Positions 9,007 to 50,124 of a stretch of 50,124 nt of DNA are shown piece after piece. This DNA comes from Pseudomonadota bacterium (GTDB lineage: Bacteria; Pseudomonadota; Gammaproteobacteria; Burkholderiales; Rhodocyclaceae): contig JAPLQT010000121.1 of NCBI GenBank assembly GCA_026399515.1, forward strand, positions 1 to 50,124. The letters are read 5' to 3'. A program made the position numbers and the translations under genes. Within the stretch, counting starts at the first letter, position 1, and every line of letters begins with the position of its first letter. Under the pieces are notes generated by a model. It was given only the letters and a program-made list of their open reading frames with translations. It was not told the DNA's origin and did no database searches.

Positions 9007-9987
9007 TTATCCCGCCATCGCTTCCACTTGCTGTTTCTCGGAAAGTTTCAGGTCCTCCAGTGTGCGGGTCAGCGCCGCATCGATGGGTGTATGCGGGATG
9101 GTTCCAATCACTCGTTCGAGCTTATCGCCGCACAGACGGTGGGCTTGGTGCCAGAGGTAGCTCATGCGCGCCAGTTCACGCAGCATCGGGTTGAAGATCC
9201 CGGCGATGCGCAACAGTGTCCACGGGATGCCCTTCACAACCGGGGCGGTGGTCGCGGGCAGCAGGCCGCCGCGCCGAGTCGCCCTGGTGATGGCAGCAAC
9301 CAGCGCATCTCCGGTCAGCGTGTGGCCGGGAAAGTGAAAGCTTTCGTGAGGGGCAAGACCGCCGCGCGCTTGCGCCAATAGCACGAAGGTCTGCGCGACG
9401 TCGGGGAGAAAGGCCCAGGCGTGTTCCAGATTTCTCGGGCCGGGATAGGTAATCTCGCCGTTGCCCAAGTTTTTGACGACGGCCTGATCCATCCATGAAC
9501 CTTCGCCCGGCCCGCCGAAGAAATCGCCGGCCCGCACCACGATGCTGCGTGGCGCGCCGGCCCGCATCGCCGTTTCCATGGCGCAGCGTATCTCGCCCTT
9601 GCGGTTTGTCGGGCGCTGCGGAGTTTCTTCGCTGATCTCTGAAGGGATAGGCGAGCCGTAGTTGTAGACGTTGCCGGGCAGCATCAGAGTCGCGCCCAGC
9701 GCGCGTGCAATCGCGATGGCGGCAGCGTTGAGCGGCAGCGCCTCGGCGTTCCAGCGGGTATAGAGGGGATTCATGGCATTGACGACGACGGATGTGCCCT
9801 TCGCGGCTGCGACGACGGCTTCCTGTTCATTGACTGGAATGCCGAGATAACTGACCTGTCCGCCGTGGGAATCGACCAGCGGCCTTCGCGCCTGGGCAAT
9901 GACGTTCCAACCCGCAGCGGAAAATGCGCGCACCGCGACACGGCCGAAGCGGCCGTTTGCGCCCAAGATCAAGACTGATTCGTTCAT
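9007..9987 (-). CDS. NAD(P)-binding epimerase/dehydratase-family protein
   Basis: Rossmann-fold protein of 326 residues in the extended short-chain dehydrogenase / NAD-dependent epimerase superfamily. The nucleotide-binding loop LILGANGRFGR is at residues 6-16. Further signs are VVNAMNPLY near 67-75, a YNYGSP segment near 109-114 where a catalytic Tyr would be expected, and VVRAGDFFGG near 150. The substrate cannot be read from sequence. It is divergent from a LysR regulator across about 95 bases that hold a LysR-type box, so regulation by that protein is likely. It is not part of a recognisable sugar operon; NAD-dependent epimerase is a generic name. Confidence 0.8.
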   Translation of the reverse strand: MNESVLILGANGRFGRVAVRAFSAAGWNVIAQARRPLVDSHGGQVSYLGIPVNEQEAVVAAAKGTSVVVNAMNPLYTRWNAEALPLNAAAIAIARALGATLMLPGNVYNYGSPIPSEISEETPQRPTNRKGEIRCAMETAMRAGAPRSIVVRAGDFFGGPGEGSWMDQAVVKNLGNGEITYPGPRNLEHAWAFLPDVAQTFVLLAQARGGLAPHESFHFPGHTLTGDALVAAITRATRRGGLLPATTAPVVKGIPWTLLRIAGIFNPMLRELARMSYLWHQAHRLCGDKLERVIGTIPHTPIDAALTRTLEDLKLSEKQQVEAMAG

Positions 9988-10050
9988 GTTGCATTTCCCT
10001 CATGGCATAGTCGATGGCGCCATTGTGCAGGGGAGGCCGTCATCTTACAA

Positions 10051-10080
10051 TTGCATATACTTGCATATCGCAAATACATT
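10051..10080 (+). promoter_or_regulatory. Divergent LysR-type promoter region
   Basis: Two head-to-tail TTGCATAT units lie at 10051-10058 and 10061-10068. The second belongs to an inverted repeat TTGC-N5-GCAA (10061-10073) that fits the T-N11-A rule for LysR binding. TTGCAT (10051-10056) and TACATT (10075-10080) with an 18-base spacer form a candidate promoter just before the LysR start at 10082. The same site could control the divergent epimerase gene (start 9987). Confidence 0.5.
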
Positions 10081-28324: not shown

Positions 28325-29995
28325 TCAAGACTTGGGATCGACCACGCGACCGGAGAAAACGATGGTGTTGGTCTTCTTGTCCAGGACGAACAAGAGGAAA
28401 GGCCGGTCCGCCCTGAAGGAGATCGTCGGCGCCTGGGGTACCGAGGTCGTGCCCATTATCACCCCGGTCGCGGCGGCTGCTTCGGTGCCGTTTTCGTCGA
28501 CGTCGGCAAAGCTCTTGTGGACAATGTCCTGGATGAGCAGCGCTTCGCTGGTACTGATGCCCGTGAAGTCCGCCCGGTCCGTGAAAGCGGTTTGCATGCC
28601 CAGGGACTGCATCGCGGCCTTGACGCTGAAACTGCCATCGACCTTGAATTTCGGCAGGCCGAGACGGACGTACTGATTTCCCAGCGCGGCCAGGACGGAA
28701 TTGAACGTGGTGACATCGAAGGCTTGCTCGAACTGAGTGTAGCGCCCGGCTGCCGGCAGTATCACCAGCATCCCGAGTTCCCCGCCGTCATAGGGCAGCT
28801 CGGCCGCCTGATAATCGGCGCCGGCTGCATAGGGCAAGACGAGATCCTGATTCATCATGTCCACCGGGACAGTGGCGGCATCCAGCCGGTTGAAGGGCGC
28901 ACTGGCGGTCGCATACTTCTGGAACTTGCTCTGCCATGCGGCATTGAAATAGACGGCATTGACCAGCACCAGTCGCGTATCCGGTGTTAGAGATCCTTGC
29001 GGGAGCAAGTCCTTGATGCGCTGCTCGGTCTTGCGCGCCACCCAGTCGTTGATCAGCGTCCGGCTCGGCTCGGGGGCGGTGCGAAAATCGACGAGGTTCA
29101 TTCCGGCGCCGTAATACTGGGTAAGAGTGTCGAGGAAAGGCGCTTCGAAGCGGCTCCGGGCATCACCCCACAGCGAATTCGAGACGCTCAGGCGGAAGGG
29201 CTGGCCATCCTTGCCTTGTGCGCCCTGGCCGCGGCTCATTAGTTGAAGGTCGAGCCAGCCGAAGGCGGGATGCAGGCGCTCCTGGGGCAGGGAGAAATGC
29301 AGCGCCCCGGCCATTTCACTCGCCGTGGCGCCATGGGCGCCGGCGTAGGTCATCGCCAGCGCCACCGAGACGCTGAGCGGCGAGAAGAAAATATTTCCGG
29401 CGCTTTGCGCCGGATCGCTTACCAGCTTCCGATAGAGGTCGAGCGCGAAGGCGGTGTTGCCCGATGCCAGCGTCGTCTTGTCGGTGTCGGATACATTCGG
29501 CGCGGCGACGCGTTGCAGGCTGGAACGAAGCACCGTGACGGGATCCGGAAAGACATATATCAGGCCGTACTTCCCGTTCGCCAGCATGTCGGCTTCGTTG
29601 AGACCGTATCCCAGGATCACCTGCGTCCCGACGAGGGACAACGAATCCAGGTTACGCGCAACTTCGATGCTGCGGCTCGTCAGCGATCCCGTCGAGTAGA
29701 CCGGGATAGAGCCGCCCAGCCAGGCAACCCAGAATGACCCATTGTGGGCATACCATCCGCCGTTGAAGTTTGCCAGGAGATAGACGTTGCCATGTTGTCC
29801 CGCATCCGCGTCGCCGACATTCAGGTTTGCGGTGATCGTCAGGCTGCCGGACGTGCCGCTGGTGGTCGCCGTGAAGGATGGCATTTGAGCCGCAAACGCC
29901 GCAGCTCCCCACCACAGCGAAACGGCTATCAGCCACGCCAGTAGGCGGCCGTATTCGCTTGCATGGATGCTAGGCGGCCGCCGGACATGCGTCAA
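28325..29995 (-). CDS. Exported serpin with additional N-terminal domain
   Basis: Protein of 556 residues. A TTG start at 29995 is supported by CAGGA about eight bases upstream; no ATG fits. A signal-like helix (GRLLAWLIAVSLWWGAAAFA, about 16-35) is followed by a 115-residue beta-rich domain without a name I recognise (LTITANLNVGDADAGQHGNV, GYGLNEADMLANGKYGLIYV). The serpin fold runs from about 175: FSPLSVSVALAMTYAGAHG, LVLVNAVYFNAAW, and the hinge/reactive loop DENGTEAAAATGV with the loop extending to about residue 524, then FRADRPFLLFVLD. The Ala-rich hinge predicts an inhibitory serpin; the P1 residue is uncertain (Thr/Ser/Val stretch). Its start overlaps the GGDEF-EAL gene by 26 bases. 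Confidence 0.9.
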   Translation of the reverse strand: MTHVRRPPSIHASEYGRLLAWLIAVSLWWGAAAFAAQMPSFTATTSGTSGSLTITANLNVGDADAGQHGNVYLLANFNGGWYAHNGSFWVAWLGGSIPVYSTGSLTSRSIEVARNLDSLSLVGTQVILGYGLNEADMLANGKYGLIYVFPDPVTVLRSSLQRVAAPNVSDTDKTTLASGNTAFALDLYRKLVSDPAQSAGNIFFSPLSVSVALAMTYAGAHGATASEMAGALHFSLPQERLHPAFGWLDLQLMSRGQGAQGKDGQPFRLSVSNSLWGDARSRFEAPFLDTLTQYYGAGMNLVDFRTAPEPSRTLINDWVARKTEQRIKDLLPQGSLTPDTRLVLVNAVYFNAAWQSKFQKYATASAPFNRLDAATVPVDMMNQDLVLPYAAGADYQAAELPYDGGELGMLVILPAAGRYTQFEQAFDVTTFNSVLAALGNQYVRLGLPKFKVDGSFSVKAAMQSLGMQTAFTDRADFTGISTSEALLIQDIVHKSFADVDENGTEAAAATGVIMGTTSVPQAPTISFRADRPFLLFVLDKKTNTIVFSGRVVDPKS

Positions 29996-32423
29996 AATAT
30001 TCGTCCTGTGGAGGTAAGGCCAGCCGCGTCATAAACTTCTCGAACTCATCCAGCGGCAACGGGCGGCTAAACAGATACCCTTGATAGGCATGGCAGCCCT
30101 GGCTGGCAAGGAACGCCCTCTGTGCTTCGATTTCCACTCCCTCGGCGATGACGGCCAGACCCATGCTCCGGGCCAGGGCTATCACCATCTTGGCAATTGC
30201 CGAATCGTTGGTATCGACGAGAATATCCCTGACGAAGCCCTGGTCGATTTTCAATTGATCAAGCGGCAGCCGCTTCAGGTAAGAGAGCGACGAATAGCCC
30301 GTACCGAAGTCATCCAGCGAGAACCCCACCCCTTTTTCCTTCAGCGCCATCATCTTGGTGATGATGTCTCCTACATCATTCACCAGCAGACTCTCGGTCA
30401 GCTCCAGCTTCAGACGTTGCGGGTCGGCCCCGGTGTGGTCAAGCACCGCCAGCACCTGGTCGACGAAATCGCGGTGGTGAAACTGGCGGGCGCTGACATT
30501 TACGGCGATGGTCAGACAGGCCATTTCCGGCCGGACCGCCCAAGCCGCCAGTTGCCGGCAAGCGGTTTCCAACACCCAAATGCCCAAGGGCAGGATCAAG
30601 CCGGTTTCCTCGGCCATGGGAATGAATTCAAGCGGAGACACCAGTCCTCGCAGCGGATGTTGCCAGCGCACCAGCGCCTCCACGCCCGTCAGGCCTCCCT
30701 CGCCGTCCACCTGGGCCTGATAGTAAAGATGGAACTGATCGTGCAGGACAGCCTCATGCAAATCGGCTTCCAGTTCGGCACGAATCATGACCTCGGCCTG
30801 CATCTTCGGATCGAAGAAGCGCAGCGTGTTGCGGCCCGCCGCCTTGGCCTGGTACATGGCCAGATCGGCCCGTTTCAGCAGCTCGTCGATGGTCTCCAGA
30901 TGATCGGCGAACAAGGTGACGCCGATGCTGGGGGTGGAGTGATAAGCGTGACTGGCGAGCTGGAAAGTCTGATTGAGGGCGGCGATAATCTTTTCGCCGA
31001 CGCTCTTGGCCTGGGCGACGGCTTCATGAGGGTGCTCGCTCAGGTCTTCAAGCATCACCACGAACTCGTCGCCCCCCAGGCGGGACACCGTGTCGCCCTC
31101 GCGCACGCAGGTGACCAGACGCTGGGAGACCTGTTGCAGCAACAGATCCCCGATGTCGTGGCCGAGAGTGTCGTTGAGGGTCTTGAAATTGTCCAGATCG
31201 ATAAACAGCAGCGCGCCATATCTCTTGTTTCGGGCACTGGATGCCAGCGCTTGTTTCACCCGGTCGAGCAGCAGCCTGCGGTTGGGCAGGCGAGTCAGGG
31301 GGTCATAGAAAGCAAGATTATTGATCTCGTCTTCGGCTGCCTTGCGCGAGGTGATGTCGGTGAGCGTCGCAACGTAGTGCGTGACTTTACCCCGGCCGTT
31401 CTTTACCGCCGCGATGGCCAGCCACTCGGGAAACACCTCTCCATTCTTGCGCCGGTTCCAGATTTCACCCTGCCATGCCCCGCTCCTATGAACGCTTTTC
31501 ATGATCGCGGCGAAAAAGTCGGCGTTGTGACGGCCGGAATTGAGCAGCCTGGGTGTTTGGCCCACGGCCTCCTCGGCGGAATAGCCGGTGATCTCGGAGA
31601 AGGCCCGGTTGACGCGCAGGATCACTTGCTCGGCATTGGTGATGAACATGCCTTCCTGGGCTTCGAAAGCGGTGGCGGCGATGCGCAGTTGTTCCTCGGT
31701 GTTTTTGTGCTCGGTAAGGTCGCGCTCGACCAGGGTGCGGTAGCGGTCTTCGCTCGCGATGAACTGACGGTGCGTCTGTCGCAACACCAGCAAGGGCAAG
31801 CCGATGCCGAGGACAACGTTCAGTCCGATCTCGACGACCAGCGAAAACGTCTGGATCGGACTGGCGAGCGCCATGAAGTCTTGACCCTCCGGCGCCATGA
31901 ATAAGGTCAAGACAGCTCGAGCGCTCAGAAAGAGTGCGGCCGTCAGGTATGCCGCGGCAACGAACCAGCGTATCAATCTGTCGCTGCGGTCGCCCGCTTG
32001 GAGCAAGACGATGGCGCTCGGGAAGGTGACTGCCGCGATCGCAATGGAGAACACCACGATGCGGGCCGCCAGGCTCGGCATCAGGTAAGTGAAACAGCAA
32101 GATGCGACAGCGGTGGCGACCACGAGAACAAAGGGCCAAGAGAGTTTGTTCGTCCTCCCTTGGAAAGCCCGGTTGCCAAGGTAAAACCATACCGCGCCGA
32201 TGAGCAGCAAGGTGTTTGCCCCAACGATGGAAAGCAGGTCCGGAATGATTCCGCGTAGCGCCACGAGAACGAAACCGGCGCCATTGGCCGTCGCACCCAT
32301 GGCCCATAGGCTCAAACCGGGATTTTTGGCGGTGGTCCGATTGACAAGCTGTAGGCCGAGCGCCAACAACAGGCTGCTGACCATGGTGAGAAAACTCAGG
32401 GTACGGATATCGAGGGTTAACAT
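29970..32423 (-). CDS. Membrane GGDEF-EAL protein with PAS domain
   Basis: Cyclic-di-GMP turnover enzyme starting MLTLDIRTLSFLTMVSSLLL at 32423 (817 residues). The first 235 form about seven membrane helices and contain LRGIIPDLLS, the same motif as in the cyclase at 5775. A PAS domain follows (TAFEAQEGMFITNAEQ to TDITSRKAAED). The GGDEF domain keeps GGDEF and an I-site REGD five residues before it. The EAL domain keeps GVEALVRW, NVSARQF, LELTESLL, DDFGTGYSSL, KIDQGF and EGVE, so both activities are plausible. The longer frame to 32519 is not supported. The downstream serpin starts inside its last codons, suggesting coupled expression. Confidence 0.93.
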   Translation of the reverse strand: MLTLDIRTLSFLTMVSSLLLALGLQLVNRTTAKNPGLSLWAMGATANGAGFVLVALRGIIPDLLSIVGANTLLLIGAVWFYLGNRAFQGRTNKLSWPFVLVVATAVASCCFTYLMPSLAARIVVFSIAIAAVTFPSAIVLLQAGDRSDRLIRWFVAAAYLTAALFLSARAVLTLFMAPEGQDFMALASPIQTFSLVVEIGLNVVLGIGLPLLVLRQTHRQFIASEDRYRTLVERDLTEHKNTEEQLRIAATAFEAQEGMFITNAEQVILRVNRAFSEITGYSAEEAVGQTPRLLNSGRHNADFFAAIMKSVHRSGAWQGEIWNRRKNGEVFPEWLAIAAVKNGRGKVTHYVATLTDITSRKAAEDEINNLAFYDPLTRLPNRRLLLDRVKQALASSARNKRYGALLFIDLDNFKTLNDTLGHDIGDLLLQQVSQRLVTCVREGDTVSRLGGDEFVVMLEDLSEHPHEAVAQAKSVGEKIIAALNQTFQLASHAYHSTPSIGVTLFADHLETIDELLKRADLAMYQAKAAGRNTLRFFDPKMQAEVMIRAELEADLHEAVLHDQFHLYYQAQVDGEGGLTGVEALVRWQHPLRGLVSPLEFIPMAEETGLILPLGIWVLETACRQLAAWAVRPEMACLTIAVNVSARQFHHRDFVDQVLAVLDHTGADPQRLKLELTESLLVNDVGDIITKMMALKEKGVGFSLDDFGTGYSSLSYLKRLPLDQLKIDQGFVRDILVDTNDSAIAKMVIALARSMGLAVIAEGVEIEAQRAFLASQGCHAYQGYLFSRPLPLDEFEKFMTRLALPPQDEYFDACPAAA

Positions 32424-32694
32424 TTTGTCGCCGACTGAAAAAGCCAAATCGTATGATCTGGCCGCCTGATCCGTGCATCGAATCGCACGGCAATGACCCA
32501 ATGCCGTTCGGGACAACAAAATCCACCAAGGACCGAAAGGGCTCCCTTGGTGGCGTGATGCCGATCAGGAACGACACATTGGGAGCATGGTAGACGAGCT
32601 TGTGCGGTGCTCAGTTGATATTCGTCAACCTTGCGTAGGTAAGCTGTTATACCCGCGACACCACGGCAACGCACCCCGGATGCACTGACAGGCG

Positions 32695-40264: not shown

Positions 40265-40338
40265 GCGGGCGTCGTATAATGGTAATACCCTAGCTTCCCA
40301 AGCTAGAGCCGTGGGTTCGATTCCCATCGCCCGCTCCA
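40265..40338 (+). tRNA. tRNA-Gly (anticodon CCC)
   Basis: Full cloverleaf of 74 nt with encoded CCA: acceptor GCGGGCG (40265-40271) pairs with CGCCCGC (40328-40334), discriminator T, then CCA. Anticodon stem CTAGC/GCTAG with loop TTCCCAA gives anticodon CCC at 40297-40299, reading GGG. T arm GTGGG-TTCGATT-CCCAT. A TAAAAT at 40249-40254 may be its -10 box. Confidence 0.95.
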
Positions 40339-40387
40339 GAAACTCTTCCATGAACGTCCTAACCAAGGCTGGAAAACCAGGCAAACA

Positions 40388-40404
40388 AAAGGCATATTGC
40401 CTTT
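40388..40404 (+). terminator. Hairpin terminator after tRNA-Gly
   Basis: Perfect 7-bp stem AAAGGCA / TGCCTTT with a TAT loop, followed by CTTG. Position 50 bases after the tRNA fits a terminator, though the T-run is short. Confidence 0.6.
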
Positions 40405-40490
40405 CTTGCGTCCTACGTGGTTCCAATTGATCTGTTGCAATCCGCCTGTTTGAGGACGCTACAGGATTTCTTCAAGCTCTTATATCTATC

Positions 40491-42800
40491 GTGCACACGC
40501 TTGATTTACTGAATCAACCAGAATCCGGCCAGATTGACCAACTGGTAACGTTGTTCAATCGGGGGCAATACGCAGAAGCTGCAGCCCTCGCCGGAGAGAT
40601 GACTGTGCTGTTTCCGAGGTACAGCGTCGGCTGGAAGGTATTGGGTGCGGTGCTAAAGCAGGTCGGGCGAACCTTGGATGCGTTGGCACCAATGCAAAAA
40701 GCGATAGTGCTGGCGCCAAGTGACGCCGTGGCGCACAGCAATCTTGGCGTTACCCTCAAGGATATGGATCGTCTGGACGAGGCCGAGACCTGTTGCCGCC
40801 GGGCTCTCGAGATTAGCCCCAATTATGCCGACGCATATTACAACCTCGGAAATGCCCTCAGCGGTCTGGGTCGGCTAGACGAGGCCGAGGTTCATTACCG
40901 CCATGCTCTGGGGATCAAGCCGGATTACGCTGACGCGCACACCAATCTGGGTGTTGTCCTAAATGACCTTGGCCGGATAGACGACGCCGAGCTCACATAC
41001 CACCGAGCTCTGCGGATCAACCCCGATTGCGCAGAGGCGATTAACAACCTGGGCGTGGCCCTCAAGCATCTCGGTCGGACAGATGAGGCGGAGGTCAGTT
41101 GCCGTCAAGCCCTGACGATCAAACCCGATTACGCCGATGCCCACCGCAACCTGGCCGTTATTCTCGAGGATCTGGGTCATCATGCCGGGGCCGAAGCCAG
41201 TTGCCGCCGATCTCTGTGCACTAAACCGAATCACCCTCAGACACATTACAACTTGGGTAATACCCTCAGTAGCCTCGGTCGGCTAAGCGAAGCCGAAGCA
41301 AGCTACCGCCGAGCTCTAGCCATCAAACCCGATTACATCGATGTGCATAACAACTTGGGCAACATCATCAAGGATATGGGCCGCCTTGACGAGGCAGAAG
41401 CAAGCTACCGCCGGGCTCTCAGGATCAACCCGGACTTTGCGGAGGGGCAAAGCAATCTGGGCATCGCGCTTAAGGAAAGCGGACAGTTGGATGAGTCGAT
41501 TGCTTGCTTTCGGGCCGCAGTGGCACTTGACCCGAGCAACACACGTTTTCATAGCAACCTCGTCTATACGATCTATTTTCACCCTACGTTCGATGAACGA
41601 GCAATACTCGATGAAGCAAGGAATTTCGGTTTGACACATTGCTCATCCGGATATGCAACACGCAATTCGCTTGCAAGGGGAGATCGATTGTCTGAAAGGC
41701 AACTGCACATTGGCTATGTCTCACCGGACTTCAGAAACCATTGCCAGTCACTCTTTACAATCCCATTATTGTCGAATCACGACCGCACGAAGTTCAAAGT
41801 ACATTGCTACGCCCAAGTAAGACAGCCTGACGAAATCACTAAGCGCTTGGCTACCTACGCCGACGTATGGCGACCTACGATTTGTCAAAGTGACGAGCAG
41901 CTCGCAACCACCATCGCCGGTGATGGCATAGATATCTTGGTTGACCTGACGATGCATATGGCTTACGGACGCCCCGCGTTGTTTGCACAAAAACCTGCGC
42001 CTATTCAAATCGCCTGGTTGGCCTATCCCGGCACCACGGGAATCCCGGCAATGGACTACCGTCTTACCGACCCATGGCTGGACCCCCCCGCGCTTGGCGA
42101 CGACCGTTACACCGAGACATCGATTCGCCTACCAGATTCCTTTTGGTGCTATGCGCCCTTGATTCCCCGCATGGAAACTGGCCCTTTGCCGGCGCTGACG
42201 GCCGGGCATATCACCTTCGGATGTCTCAATAACTTCTTTAAGGTCTCTGACGATACTCTGCGTCGCTGGAGCCGGGTAATGGTAGCGATGCCATCGTCAA
42301 GACTTATCTTGCTCACGCCGCCAGGATCTCCAAGGAAGAGAGTCCTGGAGTTATTCGGTCGATATGGTGTCGAGGCCGGACGCATCGAGTTTGTCGGACG
42401 CCAGCCGCAGCCTCAATACTTGCAAACATATAATCGCATTGATCTTTGCCTGGATACGTTGCCCTACAACGGACATACCACGAGCATTGACTCTTATTGG
42501 ATGGGTGTGCCGGTGATTACTCAAGTTGGGCACACCGTTGTTGGACGAGCGGGTTGGAGCCAACTAAATAACCTGGGTCTGCCCGAGTTGGCCGCCTTTG
42601 ACGAAGAGACTTTCGTCAACATTGCCGTCGCGACCGCGACCGACTTGCGGCGACTAAGCGAACTGCGACAATCACTGCGTAAGACTCTAGAGGACAGTCC
42701 GTTGATGGATGCGAAACGCTTCACCCGCGCAATGGAGAATGTGTATCGTCAAGTTTGGCGAAGCTTACACTCCACGTCTGGAAACGATGGGTCTGACTGA
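40491..42800 (+). CDS. TPR-repeat O-GlcNAc transferase-like glycosyltransferase (SPINDLY/GT41 type)
   Basis: Cytoplasmic protein of 769 residues. About nine 34-residue TPR units fill residues 35-365 (repeating pattern LGRLDEAEASYRRAL, IKPDYADAHNNLG), seen also as tandem DNA repeats of about 102 bp. The C-terminal GT41 catalytic part has HIGYVSPDFRNH near 405-416, AWLAYPGTTGIPAMDYRLTD near 504-523, FGCLNNFFKVS near 578-588, LDTLPYNGHTT near 657-667 and a late GRAGWSQLNNLGL. It should transfer a sugar from a nucleotide sugar to Ser/Thr of a protein; the target is unknown. The start is GTG at 40491 with no clear ribosome-binding site. Codon use is visibly less GC-rich than in neighbours, and it lies next to a tRNA gene, which suggests horizontal transfer. 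Confidence 0.9.
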   Translation: MHTLDLLNQPESGQIDQLVTLFNRGQYAEAAALAGEMTVLFPRYSVGWKVLGAVLKQVGRTLDALAPMQKAIVLAPSDAVAHSNLGVTLKDMDRLDEAETCCRRALEISPNYADAYYNLGNALSGLGRLDEAEVHYRHALGIKPDYADAHTNLGVVLNDLGRIDDAELTYHRALRINPDCAEAINNLGVALKHLGRTDEAEVSCRQALTIKPDYADAHRNLAVILEDLGHHAGAEASCRRSLCTKPNHPQTHYNLGNTLSSLGRLSEAEASYRRALAIKPDYIDVHNNLGNIIKDMGRLDEAEASYRRALRINPDFAEGQSNLGIALKESGQLDESIACFRAAVALDPSNTRFHSNLVYTIYFHPTFDERAILDEARNFGLTHCSSGYATRNSLARGDRLSERQLHIGYVSPDFRNHCQSLFTIPLLSNHDRTKFKVHCYAQVRQPDEITKRLATYADVWRPTICQSDEQLATTIAGDGIDILVDLTMHMAYGRPALFAQKPAPIQIAWLAYPGTTGIPAMDYRLTDPWLDPPALGDDRYTETSIRLPDSFWCYAPLIPRMETGPLPALTAGHITFGCLNNFFKVSDDTLRRWSRVMVAMPSSRLILLTPPGSPRKRVLELFGRYGVEAGRIEFVGRQPQPQYLQTYNRIDLCLDTLPYNGHTTSIDSYWMGVPVITQVGHTVVGRAGWSQLNNLGLPELAAFDEETFVNIAVATATDLRRLSELRQSLRKTLEDSPLMDAKRFTRAMENVYRQVWRSLHSTSGNDGSD

Positions 42801-42833
42801 GATCTACCGGGACACTGACCTGACTGGTTTTCT

Positions 42834-42865
42834 CGGGCCAATTCGATCTGGAGATTCTTGGCCCG
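42834..42865. terminator. Inverted repeat between convergent genes
   Basis: CGGGCCAA (42834-42841) and TTGGCCCG (42858-42865) form a perfect 8-bp stem with a 16-base loop, between the convergent stops of the GT41 gene (42800) and the receiver gene (42903). No T-run follows on either strand, so terminator function is only suggested by position. Confidence 0.4.
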
Positions 42866-42902
42866 GCCATCTTGCGTAGGTTGCTTTCCGCTGCTGTTTT
42901 GC

Positions 42903-43316
42903 TCAAGCGGAAGGGTCTCGAATGCCGAGTACTGCGCTGAAATAGGTCTGGTTCTGGCATACCTTTCGAATAGCCTGAAGCAGTTCAGTCCCGGCGTCCG
43001 ATTTCACGACATAGCCATGAGCGCCGGCTTCGATCATTGTGGCGACACGACGCTGGTCCCGATGGGCCGAAAGGCCGATGACCTTTACGTTCGGGTATTT
43101 GGCGAGAAGCTGCCGCGTCGCTTCGACGCCGTTCAACCCAGGCATGGTCAGATCCATGCACACCACATCCGCGCGGCTCTCGCCTACCATCCTAAGAACG
43201 TCGTTGCCGTCGATCGCCTCGCCGACCACCTCGATGTCGGGGGCCAGTTCCAAAACCATATGCAGCGCATCTCGTAGCAGCGCGTGGTCATCAGCCAGCA
43301 ATACACGCAATTTCAT
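42903..43316 (-). CDS. Receiver-only response regulator (NarL type lacking its HTH)
   Basis: Protein of 137 residues starting MKLRVLLADDHALLRDALHM. The receiver is complete: acidic pair near 9-10, phospho-acceptor Asp in VVCMDLTMPG near 55, Thr/Ser switch in GLSAHR and Lys in YVVKSDAG near 105. The linker ends GIRDPSA and a stop follows exactly where NarL/LuxR-type relatives continue into a DNA-binding domain, and no HTH is found in any frame beyond 42903. It is therefore either a natural single-domain regulator or a truncated gene next to the probably foreign GT41 gene. A kinase partner may be the one at 44912. Confidence 0.85.
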   Translation of the reverse strand: MKLRVLLADDHALLRDALHMVLELAPDIEVVGEAIDGNDVLRMVGESRADVVCMDLTMPGLNGVEATRQLLAKYPNVKVIGLSAHRDQRRVATMIEAGAHGYVVKSDAGTELLQAIRKVCQNQTYFSAVLGIRDPSA

Positions 43317-43707
43317 GAGGATCTCGCAACAAATTTCCCGACGAAGGCTAGCAGGAGTTGCACCTTTGATGTGTCAAAACTCGGCCTGACGCGTGGCGGA
43401 AAGGCCCGGCAAATAGTTGGCCCGGAAATCGTAGCCAGCGCTTGTCAGCGTCCCAAAAAAAAGCGGGGATAGAACGTTTGCTCCATCCCCTCAACCATGC
43501 ACTACTGGAGGAAATACATGTGCGACTATATTTGCAGCGATTCAAGACCGCATCCCCTATTTGGGGTAGGTTTCCAAACTTGATTCCGGTGCTGGATTGG
43601 CGCCGACATGGGACTAGGGGAAAGAGGAATTGCGCTGCTAAAGCATTTATAGCAAGACCGGCTGCCGCCAATTCGCGATCAAATTGCCGCGAGCACCGGT
43701 TTGGAAT
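43317..43707. other. Non-coding stretch with palindromic operator-like site
   Basis: About 390 bases without a supported gene. The main feature is a CCCTA-TT-TGGGG site at 43555-43566 (listed separately). An A-run (AAAAAAAA, about 43457-43464) followed by GCGGGG is also seen. No coding frame has family resemblance. Confidence 0.45.
43550..43573. promoter_or_regulatory. Operator-like palindrome, site 1
   Basis: Core CCCCTATTTGGGGTAGG at 43554-43570, preceded by GCAT and followed by TTT. It is nearly identical to the site at 44140 and lies about 235 bases upstream of the receiver-only regulator gene (start 43316). Confidence 0.5.
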
Positions 43708-44064
43708 TCACAGCCAGAGGGACGGCGAATCCTTGGTGGCGGCGGTCTCGAAGAACGCGATGAGCCGCTCCATGTCATCGGCCAGTTCGTTGGGAAGGCG
43801 CTGGCGATCCAGGACACCGGTTGCAACCGCGGAAGCGACCAGCGCCCTGTCGTCCCCCGTTTCGTAGCGCATGAAGATTTCGCGCGCGGTACGTTGATGG
43901 AATCGGTGGATGATGCCGCTCAATTCATGACTGTCGATCTTGCCAAGCCGCCAATCGTCAAAGGATTCCGCAAGCGCCGACAGGGCACGGCTTAGTTCCT
44001 CCTCGTGGGCTTGCCGCGCAAGCTTGGGAAGCAAACTCTTGAGGTTCGTCAATGTCTTTGCCAT
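43708..44064 (-). CDS. Small helical protein of unknown function
   Basis: Protein of 118 residues starting MAKTLTNLKSLLPKLARQAH at 44064; longer frames to 44337 cross the palindromic site and the regulator gene and are not favoured. Mostly helical and charged, with EELSRALSALAESFDDWRLG, then ELSGIIHRFHQRTAREIF near 54-71 and ADDMERLIAFFE. I recognise this as the pattern of small conserved hypothetical proteins, without a named function. No signal peptide or membrane helix. Its upstream region shares the operator-like site 2 with the divergent LuxR-type regulator, so it probably belongs to that regulon. Confidence 0.7.
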   Translation of the reverse strand: MAKTLTNLKSLLPKLARQAHEEELSRALSALAESFDDWRLGKIDSHELSGIIHRFHQRTAREIFMRYETGDDRALVASAVATGVLDRQRLPNELADDMERLIAFFETAATKDSPSLWL

Positions 44065-44139
44065 CTTGTTCTGTGAAAATCGAGTTGCGACGGGCTTTTG
44101 TGGGGAATCGGCACACGATAAGCCAAACAGTAGTGATTG

Positions 44140-44163
44140 GCATCCCCTAAATAGGGTAGGTTC
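44140..44163. promoter_or_regulatory. Operator-like palindrome, site 2
   Basis: CCCTA-AA-TAGGG at 44145-44156, a perfect inverted repeat with 2-bp spacer, in the context GCATCCCCTA...GGGTAGGTT shared with site 1. It lies between the divergent starts of the small helical protein (44064) and the LuxR-type regulator (44258), a classic place for autoregulation. Confidence 0.6.
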
Positions 44164-44257
44164 GCACCGCGCACCCGTCTGGCGGCCGAGAACCCTTGAG
44201 GAAAGCCGTCGCTCAAAGCCGAGTGACCCGCAAGGTGATTCCGAAGGATGCCGTTTC

Positions 44258-44902
44258 ATGCAGGATGACCGTCTTACCCCGTTTGCTCTCGTCGTCGAGG
44301 ACCATCCGCTGGTCGCGGATTCGCTGATAGCCTGCATCCGCGACTGTGCCCCCGGGCTGGAGGTTCACAGCGCGGAGTCCCTTCGGGCGGCGCTGCATAT
44401 CCTCGCGCGGCGGCCTTCGCCCCTGCTGATCATTACCGACCTGGCGTTGACCGACACCAAGGGTACCCAGGCTGTCAGAAGCCTGCGCGAGGCGGCACCC
44501 GAGACGCCCTTGCTGGTTTTCACCGCGCTGGACGATCCGATGCTCCGCAGCGAGGCCAAGGAACTCGGGGCGAGCGGCTACCTCATCAAGAGCACGTCGA
44601 CGCAGACGCTGCGGGACGAAGTTCGGGCTGTCATCGGCATGCATCCCGCCGGGCAACCCGTTCCTCCTGAAGGTGCCGGCAAGCTGAACCGACTGCTGAC
44701 GCCAAAACAGCTCGCGGTAATTGAAGAGTTGGTCGCGGGTCGCAGCAACAAACAAATCGCAGCGCGCTTGAATCTCAGCGACGAAACAGTCGGCTCCCAC
44801 ATGAAGGAAATCCTCAGCCGGCTGGGCGCAAGAAATCGTACAGAAGCAGTTGTCCGCTACCTCCAGATGATCAACCAACCCAGTGAACAAAGCAGAGGCT
44901 GA
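44258..44902 (+). CDS. LuxR/NarL-family response regulator
   Basis: Response regulator of 214 residues starting MQDDRLTPFALVVEDHPLVA at 44258, with GAAGGA eight bases upstream; the frame to 43940 is rejected. Receiver: acidic pair near 14-15, phospho-Asp in IITDLALTD near 60, Lys in GYLIKSTS near 111. C-terminal LuxR HTH: LTPKQLAVIEELVAGRSNKQ then IAARLNLSDETVGSHMKEIL. Its stop directly abuts the start of the histidine kinase gene, so the two form a two-component operon. Confidence 0.93.
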   Translation: MQDDRLTPFALVVEDHPLVADSLIACIRDCAPGLEVHSAESLRAALHILARRPSPLLIITDLALTDTKGTQAVRSLREAAPETPLLVFTALDDPMLRSEAKELGASGYLIKSTSTQTLRDEVRAVIGMHPAGQPVPPEGAGKLNRLLTPKQLAVIEELVAGRSNKQIAARLNLSDETVGSHMKEILSRLGARNRTEAVVRYLQMINQPSEQSRG

Positions 44903-44911
44903 GTGTATTGT

Positions 44912-46834
44912 ATGAGGCGCGCGCTGCTGCGTTTTGTTGCCTGTAGCCTGGGATGCATGGCCCCGGTGGTTCAAGCCATGGCTCCTGTACCTGTCGATCT
45001 CACGCCCGAAGCGGAGCGAGTTGCGGTATGGCAGGCGCTGCGTGTCGTGGAGGTTGCCGATCGACAAGTTACGCCCGATCAGGCGGCGGAACTGGCAGCC
45101 GGGAGCGAAGCCTCAGGCGTAGACAGCCCGGACCGCGTGCACGGGCGCGGCACGTCGCCCCATTGGGCACTATTCTCTCTGCATAATACGGGAGCGTCGG
45201 TGCTGCTGCGCCTGCTCGCGCTGGAGACCACCACCCAGTACGATACCCGCCTGTTCGAGCGCGACGACACAGGCATCTGGCATCCTGTCAAGTCGCTGGC
45301 GGACACCGCCGACGGCCGTCTCGGCGGCGGGACCACCTTTCCGGTCTGGGCGTTGCAACTGCCTCCCCGGCAGACTAGCGAACTGTTGCTGCGGATCGAG
45401 GGCCCGGCCATCGTCCGCTTTCCATTGTTTGTCTACCACCCGAGGAATTTCGCCGAACGGGGACGCACGCTTCATGTGGCAATCGGCATCGCGCTGGGGA
45501 GTTGCCTGTTAATCGTCGTCTACATTGGATCTCGACGCCGCTATCTCGATGACCGATCGGCGCCCCTGTTTATCTGCATGATGATCGCCGATTTGGTGGG
45601 CGCATTGTGGTTGTCGGGCTTTCTGAGCGAGTTGTTCCCCGCCGTGCCGGAAAGCGCTCTCAGTTCGATAGGGTTTGCGGCCTATGCAGTCTTATTGGGC
45701 TGCGGCAGTCTGCATGCCCGCATCTACCTGAGTTCCGCCACCTGGACGCCAAACGGCGATCGCTTGTTGCAGATCCTTGCCTGGATCTCGCTTGGGCTGG
45801 CGCCGTGGTTTCCCTTGGTGTTTCCGGTCGCCGCCAGAATCCTTGTTGTTTCGGGTGGAACAACGATCGCTCTGATCCTGGTCGTCGTTTCCGCGCTGGC
45901 CGCACGCAGGAGAATTCCTCTCTCCGGATTCATCGCCGCAGCCTGGTTGGCTTATCTGCTGGTGGGTTCATTGTTTCTGATCGCGCGGACCGTCGACAAT
46001 CCGCTGCTGTGGTCACCAAGCACGCTTCCCCTGATGCAGGCTACCGCGGTCGCGATTCTTTTCGGATCCGCCATGAGCCAGCGCCTGATGCGGCAAAGAG
46101 ATGCGCTGGCGGCGGCGCGCCAGGAAGCCGTGATGCAGCAGCAGAAGCAGGCGGCAATTATGCACGAGCGCGGCCTGCTGTTTGCGGCCACCAATCACGA
46201 CCTGCGCCAGCCCCTGCTCGGGGTCGGCCTGTTTGTACAACTGTTCAAATCGGCGCGCACTCCCGAAGAACGGGACGCGTACTCGGCGAAGCTGGATATG
46301 GCGCTCAAGGAGGTCGACGATCTCCTGGTAAACATCCAGCAACTCGCGTCGGTCCACGAAGCCTCGCATCGCCCGGCCCTGGAGACGGTGAGACTCGACG
46401 CCGTGCTGGCGCCGTTGATCGAGGAGTATCGGGGGCGATCGGAGTACAAGCAGCTCACCATCCGCTATGTGCCGTCGCGACTGACCATCACGACTCATGT
46501 TCCGTACTTTCAGCGCATCGTCCGCAACGCGCTCTCCAACGCCATCCGCTATTGCGACCGGGGAGACCGGATACTGGTCGGCTGCCGGCGCGGAGGCGGG
46601 TTGCGTCTGGTCGTCAGGGATACCGGCCGCGGCATGACCGAGGAGCAGATCGAACGGGCGTTTGACGCGTTTCAGCGTTTCGACTCCGAAGGGTCCATCG
46701 AGGAAGGATTCGGCCTGGGCTTGTTCAGCACCAAGAGTCTGGCCAATGCCCTGGGGCTGGCGGTCAGCCTGCACCGCCACGATGGACGTGGCACCGAGTT
46801 CAGAATGCTGATGCCGCCCGGCGACGCGCTCCCG
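44912..46834 (+). CDS. 7TMR-DISM sensor histidine kinase, own stop codon lost
   Basis: Membrane histidine kinase. Start is ATG 44912 (MRRALLRFVACSLGCMAPVV, signal peptide) or GTG 44903. An extracytoplasmic 7TMR-DISMED2-like domain (about 25-185; SPHWALFSLHN, PVWALQLPP) precedes seven membrane helices (about 190-395). The kinase core has H-box NHDLRQPLLG with His429, N-box RNALSNAIRY, G1 DTGRGM and G2 GFGLGLFSTKSLANALG. The domain is complete to GTEFRMLMPPGDA, but no stop follows: at about 46829-46834 the sequence passes into the antisense of the convergent GGDEF-EAL gene, and the frame stays open to 48349. The given end is the point where homology stops. If translated as is, a tail of about 500 meaningless residues would follow. 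Confidence 0.85.
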
Positions 46835-49357
46835 GTAATAGCCCTGCGCCGTATTGCAATTCCAGCCCTGCAAGAGCCTGGCCTGCTCGACGGTTTCCAC
46901 GCCTTCCGCGACGATCTGCATCCCCAGGTTGCGGCCCAGGTCGATCACCGTCTTGGCAATCGCCACATCCGACGGGTCCGTGACGATGCCGTTGATAAAC
47001 GACCTGTCGATTTTGAGCACGCTGATGGGCAGGCGTTTGAGATAACTCAGGCTGGAAAATCCCGTGCCGAAATCGTCCATGGCAATGCTCAGCCCAGTCG
47101 CATTCAGTTTTTGGAGCAGCAGTATGGTTTCTTCCGGATTATCCACCGCCATGCTCTCGGTAATCTCCAGTTCCAGAAAATACGGGGCCAGGTCATTTGC
47201 CGAGAGCGCAGTGTGAATGGAGTCGACGAAGGCCTTGTGCCTGAACTGGCGGGCGGAGATGTTCACCGCCATGCGGATCGGCGAGATGCCCGCCTCGCGC
47301 CATTCGCGGGCCTGGGCACAGGCCGTATTCAATACCCACTCGCCGATGGGAACGATCAGGCCGGACTCTTCGGCGATGGAAATGAACTCGTCGGGCGGCA
47401 CCATCCCCCGCTCGGGATGTTGCCAGCGGATAAGCGCCTCCATTCCGGAAATCGCGCCGGTGTTCAAGTCGATCTGCGGTTGATAGTGGAGCAGCAACTC
47501 CCGGCGCTCCACCGCATGGCGCAACTCCGCCTCCAGGGTGAGCCGCTGCCGCAGCAGCGTATTCATCTCCTGCCGGTAGAACGCGTAGCGATTGCGCCCG
47601 CCGTCCTTGGCGCGATACATGGCGGTGTCCGCATGCATCAGCAGGGTTCCGGCATCCCTTCCGTCTTTCGGATACAGGCTCGCTCCTATGCTGCAAGACA
47701 CATGCAGTTCGAGCCCGGCGACGTGGTAGAGGCCGGACACATTGGACATGATTCTGCCGATGGCGACCATCGCGTCGTTTTCCGTCTGGTCCTCCGCCAG
47801 GACCAGCACGAACTCGTCGCCGCCTGGCCGGGCGACGGTATCGACATCGCGCACGCAAGCGCTGATTTTTTTCGCCACTGCCTGGAGCAGCTGGTCGCCG
47901 ACCGCATGGCCGAGACTGTCGTTGATGTCCTTGAAATGGTCGAGATCGACGAAGATCACGGCCACCGTCTTGTCATGCCGCTCGGCCAGCGCGATCGCAT
48001 GTTCCAGGCGATCGTTGAGCAGGAGACGATTGGCCAGCCCGGTCAACGCATCATGGTTTGCCTGATTTTCGAGTTCCGCCTGGTAACGTTTTTTCTCGGT
48101 GATATCCCTGCCGACGCCACGATAGCCCTTGAAATTCCCTTGGTCGTCGAAGATCGGGATGCCGCTGGCGCTGTACCAGCGGATACTCCCATCCTTCGCC
48201 CGGAATTGATATTCCCAGTTCTTGAACGGCAGGTGAGCCTCCAGCAGCGCCCTGTGCGCCGCCCACTGCTCGTCGCTGATGCCGATGATCGGCAGTTCCC
48301 AACGGGTTATACCGACATGGCTTTCGGCCGGAACACCGGAGAACTTTAGATTGGTGGTGCGGCTGGTGTAGCGGAAATGTTCGTCCTGCTCCCAGATGGA
48401 ATCCGACGAAATTTCGGTGAGATTGCGAAACCGTTCTTCGCTCTCGTTCAAGGCCTGTTCGACGTTTTTGCGTTCGCTGATGTCGATGATCATCGCGACG
48501 AAATATTCCGGTTCGCCAAGCTTGTCCCGTACCAGGGAAATGCTCAGATCCAGCCACACCGCCTCGGCATTCTTGTTGACGAAGCGAATTTCGCGGTTGA
48601 AGCCGCCGATTTTTCCGGCCACCAGGTCCGCCAAACCCCGCCTGTCCGGTTCGACATCCTGTTCATGCGTAATATCGAAGATTTTGTAGCCGAGCATTTC
48701 CTTGCGGTTGTAGCCGGTGATTTCACAGAGTTTCCGGTTGACCTCGAGAAAGCGCCCTTCCAGGTCCAGGCGTACCACGCCGACCGGCGCGTTTTCGAAG
48801 GTCGCCTTGAAGCGCGTCTCGCTGTCTCGCAGGCGCTTGCTTTCGAAGTGGGAATACGTGTCGAGCGCGATGCCCATGTCGAAAAACACGATCTTCAGCA
48901 GGGCATTGATGGCCTCGCCAAGTCCGCCCGTGTCTCCCACCTTGGCCCGGGAGAGGAGATCGACGATCTCGGTGAGGTATTTGCGGTAGGCGCCCAGATA
49001 CCACTTGGGTGGCAGGCTGATTCTCTGGTGTGCCATGCCCACCTTCAAGCGGTCGAGGATGTAGTTCTCGCCGTAGTCGCCCTCGGTCAGGGCGCTGAAA
49101 TAGCGCGCCTGGACTTGCTTCAACTGTTGCAGCACCGGACCTTCCGCAACATAGGCTTGCAGCGGCGCGAACTTGAACAGGTGGTCGTAGAAGGCGTCGG
49201 TAAAGCTTTCGCGCTGCGGCTCCAGCAGCGCGTGCAGCGCCTTCAGGACGGCGACGTCGTGCTCCTCGAACTCCAGGAAGCGCCAGCGTTCGTCGATCTC
49301 CTCGCTGCCCAGGCCGATTTGCGCAGCGATGTTCAAGGTTTCCAAAATATCGGACAT
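46835..49357 (-). CDS. Globin-coupled oxygen sensor PAS-PAS-GGDEF-EAL, EAL domain clipped at its end
   Basis: Cyclic-di-GMP enzyme with ATG 49357 (CAGGAG upstream), MSDILETLNIAAQIGLGSEE. The N-terminal 165 residues are a globin-coupled sensor; VGMAHQRISLPPKW puts the proximal heme His at 110. Two PAS domains follow (NAPVGVVRLDLEGRFLEVNR; SSDSIWEQDEHFRYTSR), then GGDEF with an I-site RDVD five residues before it, then EAL with EALIRW, NISARQF, ELEITES, DDFGTGFSSL, KIDRSF, EGVE and CNTAQGYY. After QGYY the usual FSRPLP ending is absent: the frame enters the antisense of the histidine kinase and stays open to 46013. All catalytic residues precede the break. It probably senses O2 and sets cyclic-di-GMP. 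Confidence 0.88.
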
Positions 49358-49418
49358 TCTGCTCCTGTGGGGTTGGCCATAACGACCGTTGTCGTCGTTC
49401 CGCCAAGCGCAAAATTTC

Positions 49419-49471
49419 AGCACATACGCAATAAGCTATCAATTTGGTAAGCACATATGCAATAAACTACC
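49419..49471. repeat. Pair of 22-bp direct repeats in AT-rich intergenic region
   Basis: AGCACATAYGCAATAA followed by RCTAYC occurs at 49419-49440 and 49450-49471, with 19 of 22 bases identical and start-to-start spacing of 31 bp (about three helical turns). It lies upstream of the globin-coupled sensor gene (start 49357), so it is a candidate binding site pair for a regulator of that gene. Confidence 0.6.
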
Positions 49472-49496
49472 GTACTTTAAATATAAAAGTTATACC

Positions 49497-49530
49497 TATA
49501 AATGGGTAGCAATATCATTTATATGGGTAG
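49497..49530. repeat. Second repeat pair, ATGGGTAG 21 bp apart
   Basis: TATAAATGGGTAG (49497-49509) and TTTATATGGGTAG (49518-49530) share ATGGGTAG with 21-bp spacing (two helical turns). The sites lie between the sensor gene and the WYL regulator gene in a strikingly AT-rich stretch. Probably regulatory; no protein is assigned. Confidence 0.5.
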
Positions 49531-49581
49531 TAGCCTTGTTTATGATGGGGGATCCGATGGCTCAAACCGCGGTTCGCCCCT

Positions 49582-50124
49582 CTAGCGGGCGTAAGCCGCA
49601 CGCGCCGCGTCGAGTTCCAGTTTGACTGCTTGCCTTAGCGCGGGTGGTTCCAGCACCTCGACTCCGGAACCGTGGCGCAGGATGTCCATGACCAGTTCCG
49701 TCGGGTTGGAGTAAGGCAGTTCGAGCAGGAAATGACCGTCGGCCTCGGTATGCGACTTCTGCCGCGGATGCCACTGCTCGGCGGCGACCCAGCGGGCGTG
49801 CGATGGGGTAAATCGCAGTTTCGCCCAGGCCACCACGGCGCCTGAAAATATCCCGTAGCCGGCGCCGAGAACGGTGTCCAGGTCGCGTTTGGCGATCTCC
49901 TTGACTTTCTTGTCGACATGCTCCGCGTGGCGGATGGCATCCACCGCAAAACTGCGGACTTCCTCACGCAGGTGGCACCAGGCGTCCATATACCAGTTGT
50001 CCCGGTAATAGATCAGGCGCTGCGGCGACACTTCACGTTCGGTCTCCTGGCCGGAGCCGCGGTTGTAGTGGCGGATGAACAGGCGCCGGCGTTTCAGCAG
50101 CGTCGACGCGATCAGGTCGAAATA
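49582..50124 (-). CDS. WYL-domain transcriptional regulator, 5' end outside window
   Basis: C-terminal 180 residues of a regulator; the frame is open to the window edge (reading YFDLIASTLLKRRRLFIRHY). The ligand-binding WYL domain is recognisable: SPQRLIYYRDNWYMDAWCHL with the core Trp-Tyr, then REEVRSFAVDAI and the C-terminal extension typical of YafY/PafC-like proteins (TELVMDILRHGSGVEVLEPP). The HTH must lie upstream of the window. WYL proteins often bind nucleic-acid-related ligands; the target here is unknown. It ends in AAYAR at 49582, facing the repeat-rich region. Confidence 0.88.
   Translation of the reverse strand, partial: YFDLIASTLLKRRRLFIRHYNRGSGQETEREVSPQRLIYYRDNWYMDAWCHLREEVRSFAVDAIRHAEHVDKKVKEIAKRDLDTVLGAGYGIFSGAVVAWAKLRFTPSHARWVAAEQWHPRQKSHTEADGHFLLELPYSNPTELVMDILRHGSGVEVLEPPALRQAVKLELDAARAAYAR

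Follow-up and report, generated by a model that had tools for sequence, protein, structure and literature searches.

Gene organization at the locus

The window, i.e. the whole stretch of DNA analyzed, comprises bases 1 to 50,124 of a contig of 119,369 bases that belongs to a draft genome of 5.3 Mb in 139 contigs. Towards its right end a response regulator and a 7TMR-DISM histidine kinase, both encoded on the plus strand, face a minus-strand sensor with the organization Protoglobin-PAS-PAS-GGDEF-EAL, as defined by the open reading frames and their Pfam matches (Table 1). The list of open reading frames bears out an earlier sequence-only reading of this DNA, according to which the two convergent genes read through each other: the kinase frame is open from 44903 to 48349 (+) and codes for 1148 aa, the sensor frame is open from 46013 to 49423 (-) and codes for 1136 aa, and their overlap amounts to 2331 nt, stops excluded.

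The kinase combines 7TMR-DISM and HATPase_c domains, while its HisKA region scores under the cut-off (20.6 vs 26.9 bits). The sensor carries an amino terminal globin domain (Protoglobin, E 5.5e-34) together with a GGDEF and EAL output module, which is the arrangement of globin-coupled sensors. Both proteins match known globin-coupled c-di-GMP sensors and 7TMR-DISM histidine kinases in domain content, with the difference that the EAL domain of the present sensor has no carboxyl terminal end. Terminator-like sites between 44500 and 50124 show no excess over chance (four, against a shuffle mean of 5.1), and none is listed between 46000 and 47700.

Table 1. Features of the kinase/sensor locus and of the block around it (positions in the window).
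Feature	Position	Strand	Evidence or remark
tRNA-Gly (CCC), left border of variable block	40265..40338	+	ARAGORN; counterpart in G002
Receiver domain without output domain	42903..43316	-	Pfam, translation
Response regulator (receiver + GerE/LuxR HTH), directly 5' of kinase	44243..44902	+	Pfam
7TMR-DISM histidine kinase, homologous part	44903..46828	+	Pfam; 68% identity to G071 kinase
Sensor-frame read-through tail, antisense of kinase	46013..46834	-	No Pfam match; mirrored codon-position GC
Joint, stretch before EAL match	46808..46834		27 nt by pairwise alignment, 15 nt (46820-46834) by HATPase_c profile
Kinase-frame read-through tail, antisense of EAL/GGDEF	46829..48349	+	No Pfam match; mirrored codon-position GC
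Globin-coupled sensor Protoglobin-PAS-PAS-GGDEF-EAL, homologous part, truncated after QGYY	46835..49423	-	Pfam, alignment, model
WYL/WCX regulator, right border of variable block, runs into N run	49582..50124	-	Pfam; 82% identical DNA in G002

The 3' ends of the two genes

Relatives of the kinase outside its own genome are found in two of 101 family genomes at E <= 1e-50, namely G071 (68% identity) and G075 (33%), and at E <= 1e-100 the only one of 399 genomes of the order with a match is the own genome. The G071 kinase is also preceded by a similar response regulator (open reading frame list, judged by eye). Homology of the kinase ends between 46807 and 46819: the pairwise alignment with the G071 protein (68% over 633 positions) stops at residue 635, i.e. 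at 46807, and the HATPase_c profile (positions 6-109 of 111) fits residues 536-639, reaching 46819. Past the motif GTEF the G071 kinase continues with SIALSASGTP and stops after 10 residues, the G075 kinase continues past the counterpart GSCF with RVLVPRPVSMER and stops after 12 residues, and the present kinase has RMLMPPGDALP after GTEF and runs on in a frame with no stop there. The absence of a normal kinase stop had been claimed before and is upheld by this comparison. The product exceeds its relatives in length (1148 aa vs 641 aa in G071 and 623 aa in G075) and its extension is absent from both of them, which end normally, orthologs being few overall. By these alignments the kinase appears to have lost little more than its stop codon. 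Note that in G071 the 3' end of the kinase gene shares 21 nt with a convergent gene of the AcrB family (L022 1480-1500).

The EAL profile (positions 2-232 of 236) matches the sensor to residue 863, and a genome-wide EAL search places the end of the match at 46835. In EAL domains the tail forms the last helix of the barrel. All 17 aligned EAL relatives, chosen from 80 loci of a GTDB scan, have QG-x-x followed by F or Y and then by S, A or G, whereas the sensor carries RERVAG where their usual tail starts. A tail that starts with F or I, as the motif used for the own genome demands, is found in 24 of the 28 other EAL loci examined there; of the four loci without it, one is a gene interrupted by Ns and the other three lack the motif. 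The tails measure 16-23 residues in 15 of these 24 loci and span 7 to 224 residues in the remaining ones. Judged from this comparison, the sensor has probably lost 16-23 carboxyl terminal residues of its EAL protein. In an AlphaFold2 model of the EAL domain plus read-through tail the EAL part is confident and 214 of 517 residues, nearly all of them in the tail, score below 50; as the alignment has no depth over the tail, the model contributes little here. In the own-genome EAL gene broken by Ns (L147; G000 C129, about 9349-10069; X in the L135 translation) the last profile positions are matched separately.

Homology thus ends at the joint on both sides and the EAL tail is missing, in accordance with the sequence-only reading. 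The alignment to relatives that it had proposed for finding the missing segments succeeded for the ends of the kinase (in G071 and G075) and for the start of the EAL tail, but it yielded no close sensor ortholog: the best full-length relative of the sensor among the 101 family genomes has 38% identity, and the best 80 of 580 relatives in the GTDB scan include none that is close, their best segments reaching 34-49% identity.

The joint in the assembly

The joint itself is probably present in the organism. The sequence, read directly, has no Ns there, and the HATPase_c profile leaves just 15 nt before the EAL match. Region 46500-47200 has 11 matches in the own genome, of which only the locus itself crosses the joint while the other 10 start past it. 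Tetranucleotide usage of both flanks is like that of the contig, 83 of 208 and 26 of 209 windows being equally or more distant. These four observations speak against an assembly artefact or strain chimera, in which the joint would exist in no cell and both genes would end normally. We regard such an origin as distinctly less probable than a joint in the organism, albeit a serious contender. It is favored by the draft state of the genome (139 contigs), by another EAL gene broken by Ns, by the 30 EAL matches of the genome and by an N run of 71 bases (50125-50195, contig C6; a gap or a masked stretch) found 3.3 kb from the joint. The otherwise open state of both genes is also what an unbroken locus would show. 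In addition, up to 27 nt at the joint lie outside the pairwise alignment, and a join via a short shared word is conceivable, though unlikely. No genome holding the joint was found among the 101 family genomes, the 399 order genomes and the best 80 of 580 relatives in the GTDB scan, nor was a second genome with the intact arrangement found in the relatives searched. The repeats around the joint consist of one 19-nt pair (79%) whose starts are 577 nt apart and which does not lie at the joint.

An error of single bases near 46830 that conceals a normal kinase stop would be another cause of the open kinase frame. An out-of-frame TAA TAG at 46836-46841 does lie near the stop positions of the G071 and G075 kinases. 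However, these triplets are the EAL Tyr-Tyr codons read on the opposite strand and would occur in any case, and the missing EAL tail would be left unexplained, which makes this cause highly improbable.

An insertion into the EAL gene that displaced its tail to another place on the contig was also considered and rejected: a motif scan of the 119 kb gives four matches, and the sole EAL tail among them belongs to the intact EAL gene at 30071. No partner copy of the missing tail was found when the genome was searched for an orphan EAL tail with a 19-position model, which also missed real tails such as that of L123. Of its 23 matches with E values up to 10, 14 are strong and come from rows of the query itself, and nine are weak (E 0.3 to 6.3).

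The read-through tails and the openness of antisense frames

Neither tail has a match to a Pfam family at E up to 0.1. The kinase has a codon-position GC of 0.66/0.48/0.75 and the sensor one of 0.62/0.38/0.78. The values become 0.78/0.40/0.63 in the kinase tail (46835-48349) and 0.80/0.44/0.69 in the sensor tail, each tail mirroring the opposite gene as an antisense frame should. A coding signature of both frames, which would mark a functional overlap, is thus not seen in the overlap, where GC is mirrored and Pfam matches are missing.

Codons of kinase and sensor share one register, in which, among sense codons, just TTA, CTA and TCA turn into stops on the opposite strand. They account for one of 863 codons in the sensor and six of 642 in the kinase. 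Each frame runs on through the other gene because both genes have few of these codons. Once the kinase frame is in register the sensor frame is in register too, and therefore the two open frames represent a single coincidence of about 1 in 3.

The length of the frames was compared with that found in the 24 other EAL genes of the genome when entered in register at the equivalent point. The antisense frame stays open for at least 504 codons in four of them and for at least 200 codons in nine; their median run is 153.5 codons, which puts 504 on the long side. The two other antisense frames of the same genes have median runs of 1 and 25.5 codons before they close. The right register is required for the long frames of the joint and, given this register, their length is long-sided yet not rare.

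Similar overlaps are common on the contig. It has 120 stretches that stay free of stops for 300 codons or more, and 37 pairs of these overlap on opposite strands by 900 nt or more; the overlap of kinase and sensor comes second. The longest one (2442 nt) lies over a DUF3683/FAD-oxidase-type gene that has domains on one strand only, its 840-residue antisense frame giving no Pfam match. The GGDEF-EAL gene within the stretch 29973-32564 of the window has an opposite-strand overlap of 1884 nt and no Pfam match in its antisense. Kinases that have their own stop behave alike: that of G075 features an open antisense frame of 605 residues (L023 1474-3291, -) and that of G071 one of 211 residues with 54% identity over 210 positions to the tail of the sensor. 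Note that in G071 the in-register frame that enters at the kinase 3' end is soon stopped, at antisense-stop codons 635 and 613 of 642. The length of both open frames is within the range given by other genes of the genome. The 2.3-kb read-through noted in the sequence-only reading is not special: four of 24 other EAL genes, if joined at this place, would yield a frame of equal length, and the same contig has a 2442-nt overlap. The long overlapping frames most likely represent no new giant proteins but an ordinary consequence of codon usage.

This bears directly on the proposal that the tails, or antisense transcripts, tie oxygen/c-di-GMP sensing to the two-component system in a functional unit, fused or mutually antisense. 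In its favor, the two frames remain open and, terminator-like sites being no more frequent than chance, the transcripts of the two genes may extend into one another. Against it, the tails lack Pfam matches and bear the codon signature of the opposite strand, antisense frames are also open in kinase relatives with normal ends, overlaps of this kind are common on the contig, and the two kinase relatives found both end normally. Such a unit is therefore a remote prospect, and the giant chimeric proteins and the sensor/two-component link that had been suggested are left unsupported. We give equally little credence to the reading that a live, fixed joint has made the two genes into a pair whose transcripts are antisense to each other over 2.3 kb and whose proteins are extended, so that expression of the sensor and of the two-component system would be opposed.

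A joint between convergent signaling genes

We consider it rather probable that a single deletion or recombination joint (46808-46834) formed between the two convergent signaling genes within a variable block, with the long frames as a by-product. This joint, in the block beside tRNA-Gly, would have removed the kinase stop, probably 16-23 EAL residues and anything between them, and would have fallen in codon register by chance (about 1 in 3). Most likely the resulting kinase would have its catalytic core complete, the EAL domain of the resulting sensor would be damaged, and both proteins would end in a meaningless tail. Meaningless protein tails are often degraded. One deletion that removed both 3' ends, as first proposed, remains the simplest reading and agrees with where homology ends; the likeliest origin is a real deletion or recombination. 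The frames, their common register, the ends of homology and the controls are direct results; the presence of the joint in the cell, its nature as a deletion and the fate of its products are what we infer here.

Convergent overlaps generated by 3' extension are a known class, in which many cases are errors: Palleja, Harrington and Bork (2008, PMC2478687) assign 124 convergent overlaps to 3' extension and leave 54 as possibly true. The present locus shares with the overlaps described there a convergent pair, a lost stop codon and a frame that continues into the neighbor, and differs from that class, as that paper presents it, in that one joint extends both genes at once and the overlap reaches 2.3 kb. 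Long antisense open reading frames are frequent, primarily due to codon usage (Merino et al. 1994, as cited in PMC3454372). The frames reported here are likewise long and open in antisense but, unlike those in that citing account, they are attached to real genes through the joint and resemble carboxyl terminal extensions. If real, the locus would illustrate cleanly how one in-register joint, in a genome with a GC content of about 60%, creates a pair of very long apparent genes in a single step. It would also caution against relying on gene callers, which would probably annotate proteins that are too long or omit one of the genes. It says nothing new on signaling unless the tails prove to be expressed.

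The variable block

The region between tRNA-Gly (CCC) and the WYL regulator differs between two genomes. Its borders are defined by comparison with one genome, G002, which is of the same genus and has MazE/PemK-like and radical-SAM genes (~1.9 kb) between the counterparts of tRNA and WYL gene. In the window the 9.2-kb block codes for a TPR/glycosyltransferase-41 protein, a receiver without output domain, the response regulator and kinase, and the sensor. A search for an att-like repeat of the tRNA end returns only the tRNA itself, so that "island" is too strong a name for the block. The GC content of the block (40339-49581) is 0.580, against 0.624 and 0.636 on its flanks. The gene of the receiver protein has its stop soon after the receiver domain and may be a second 3'-truncated regulator in this block.
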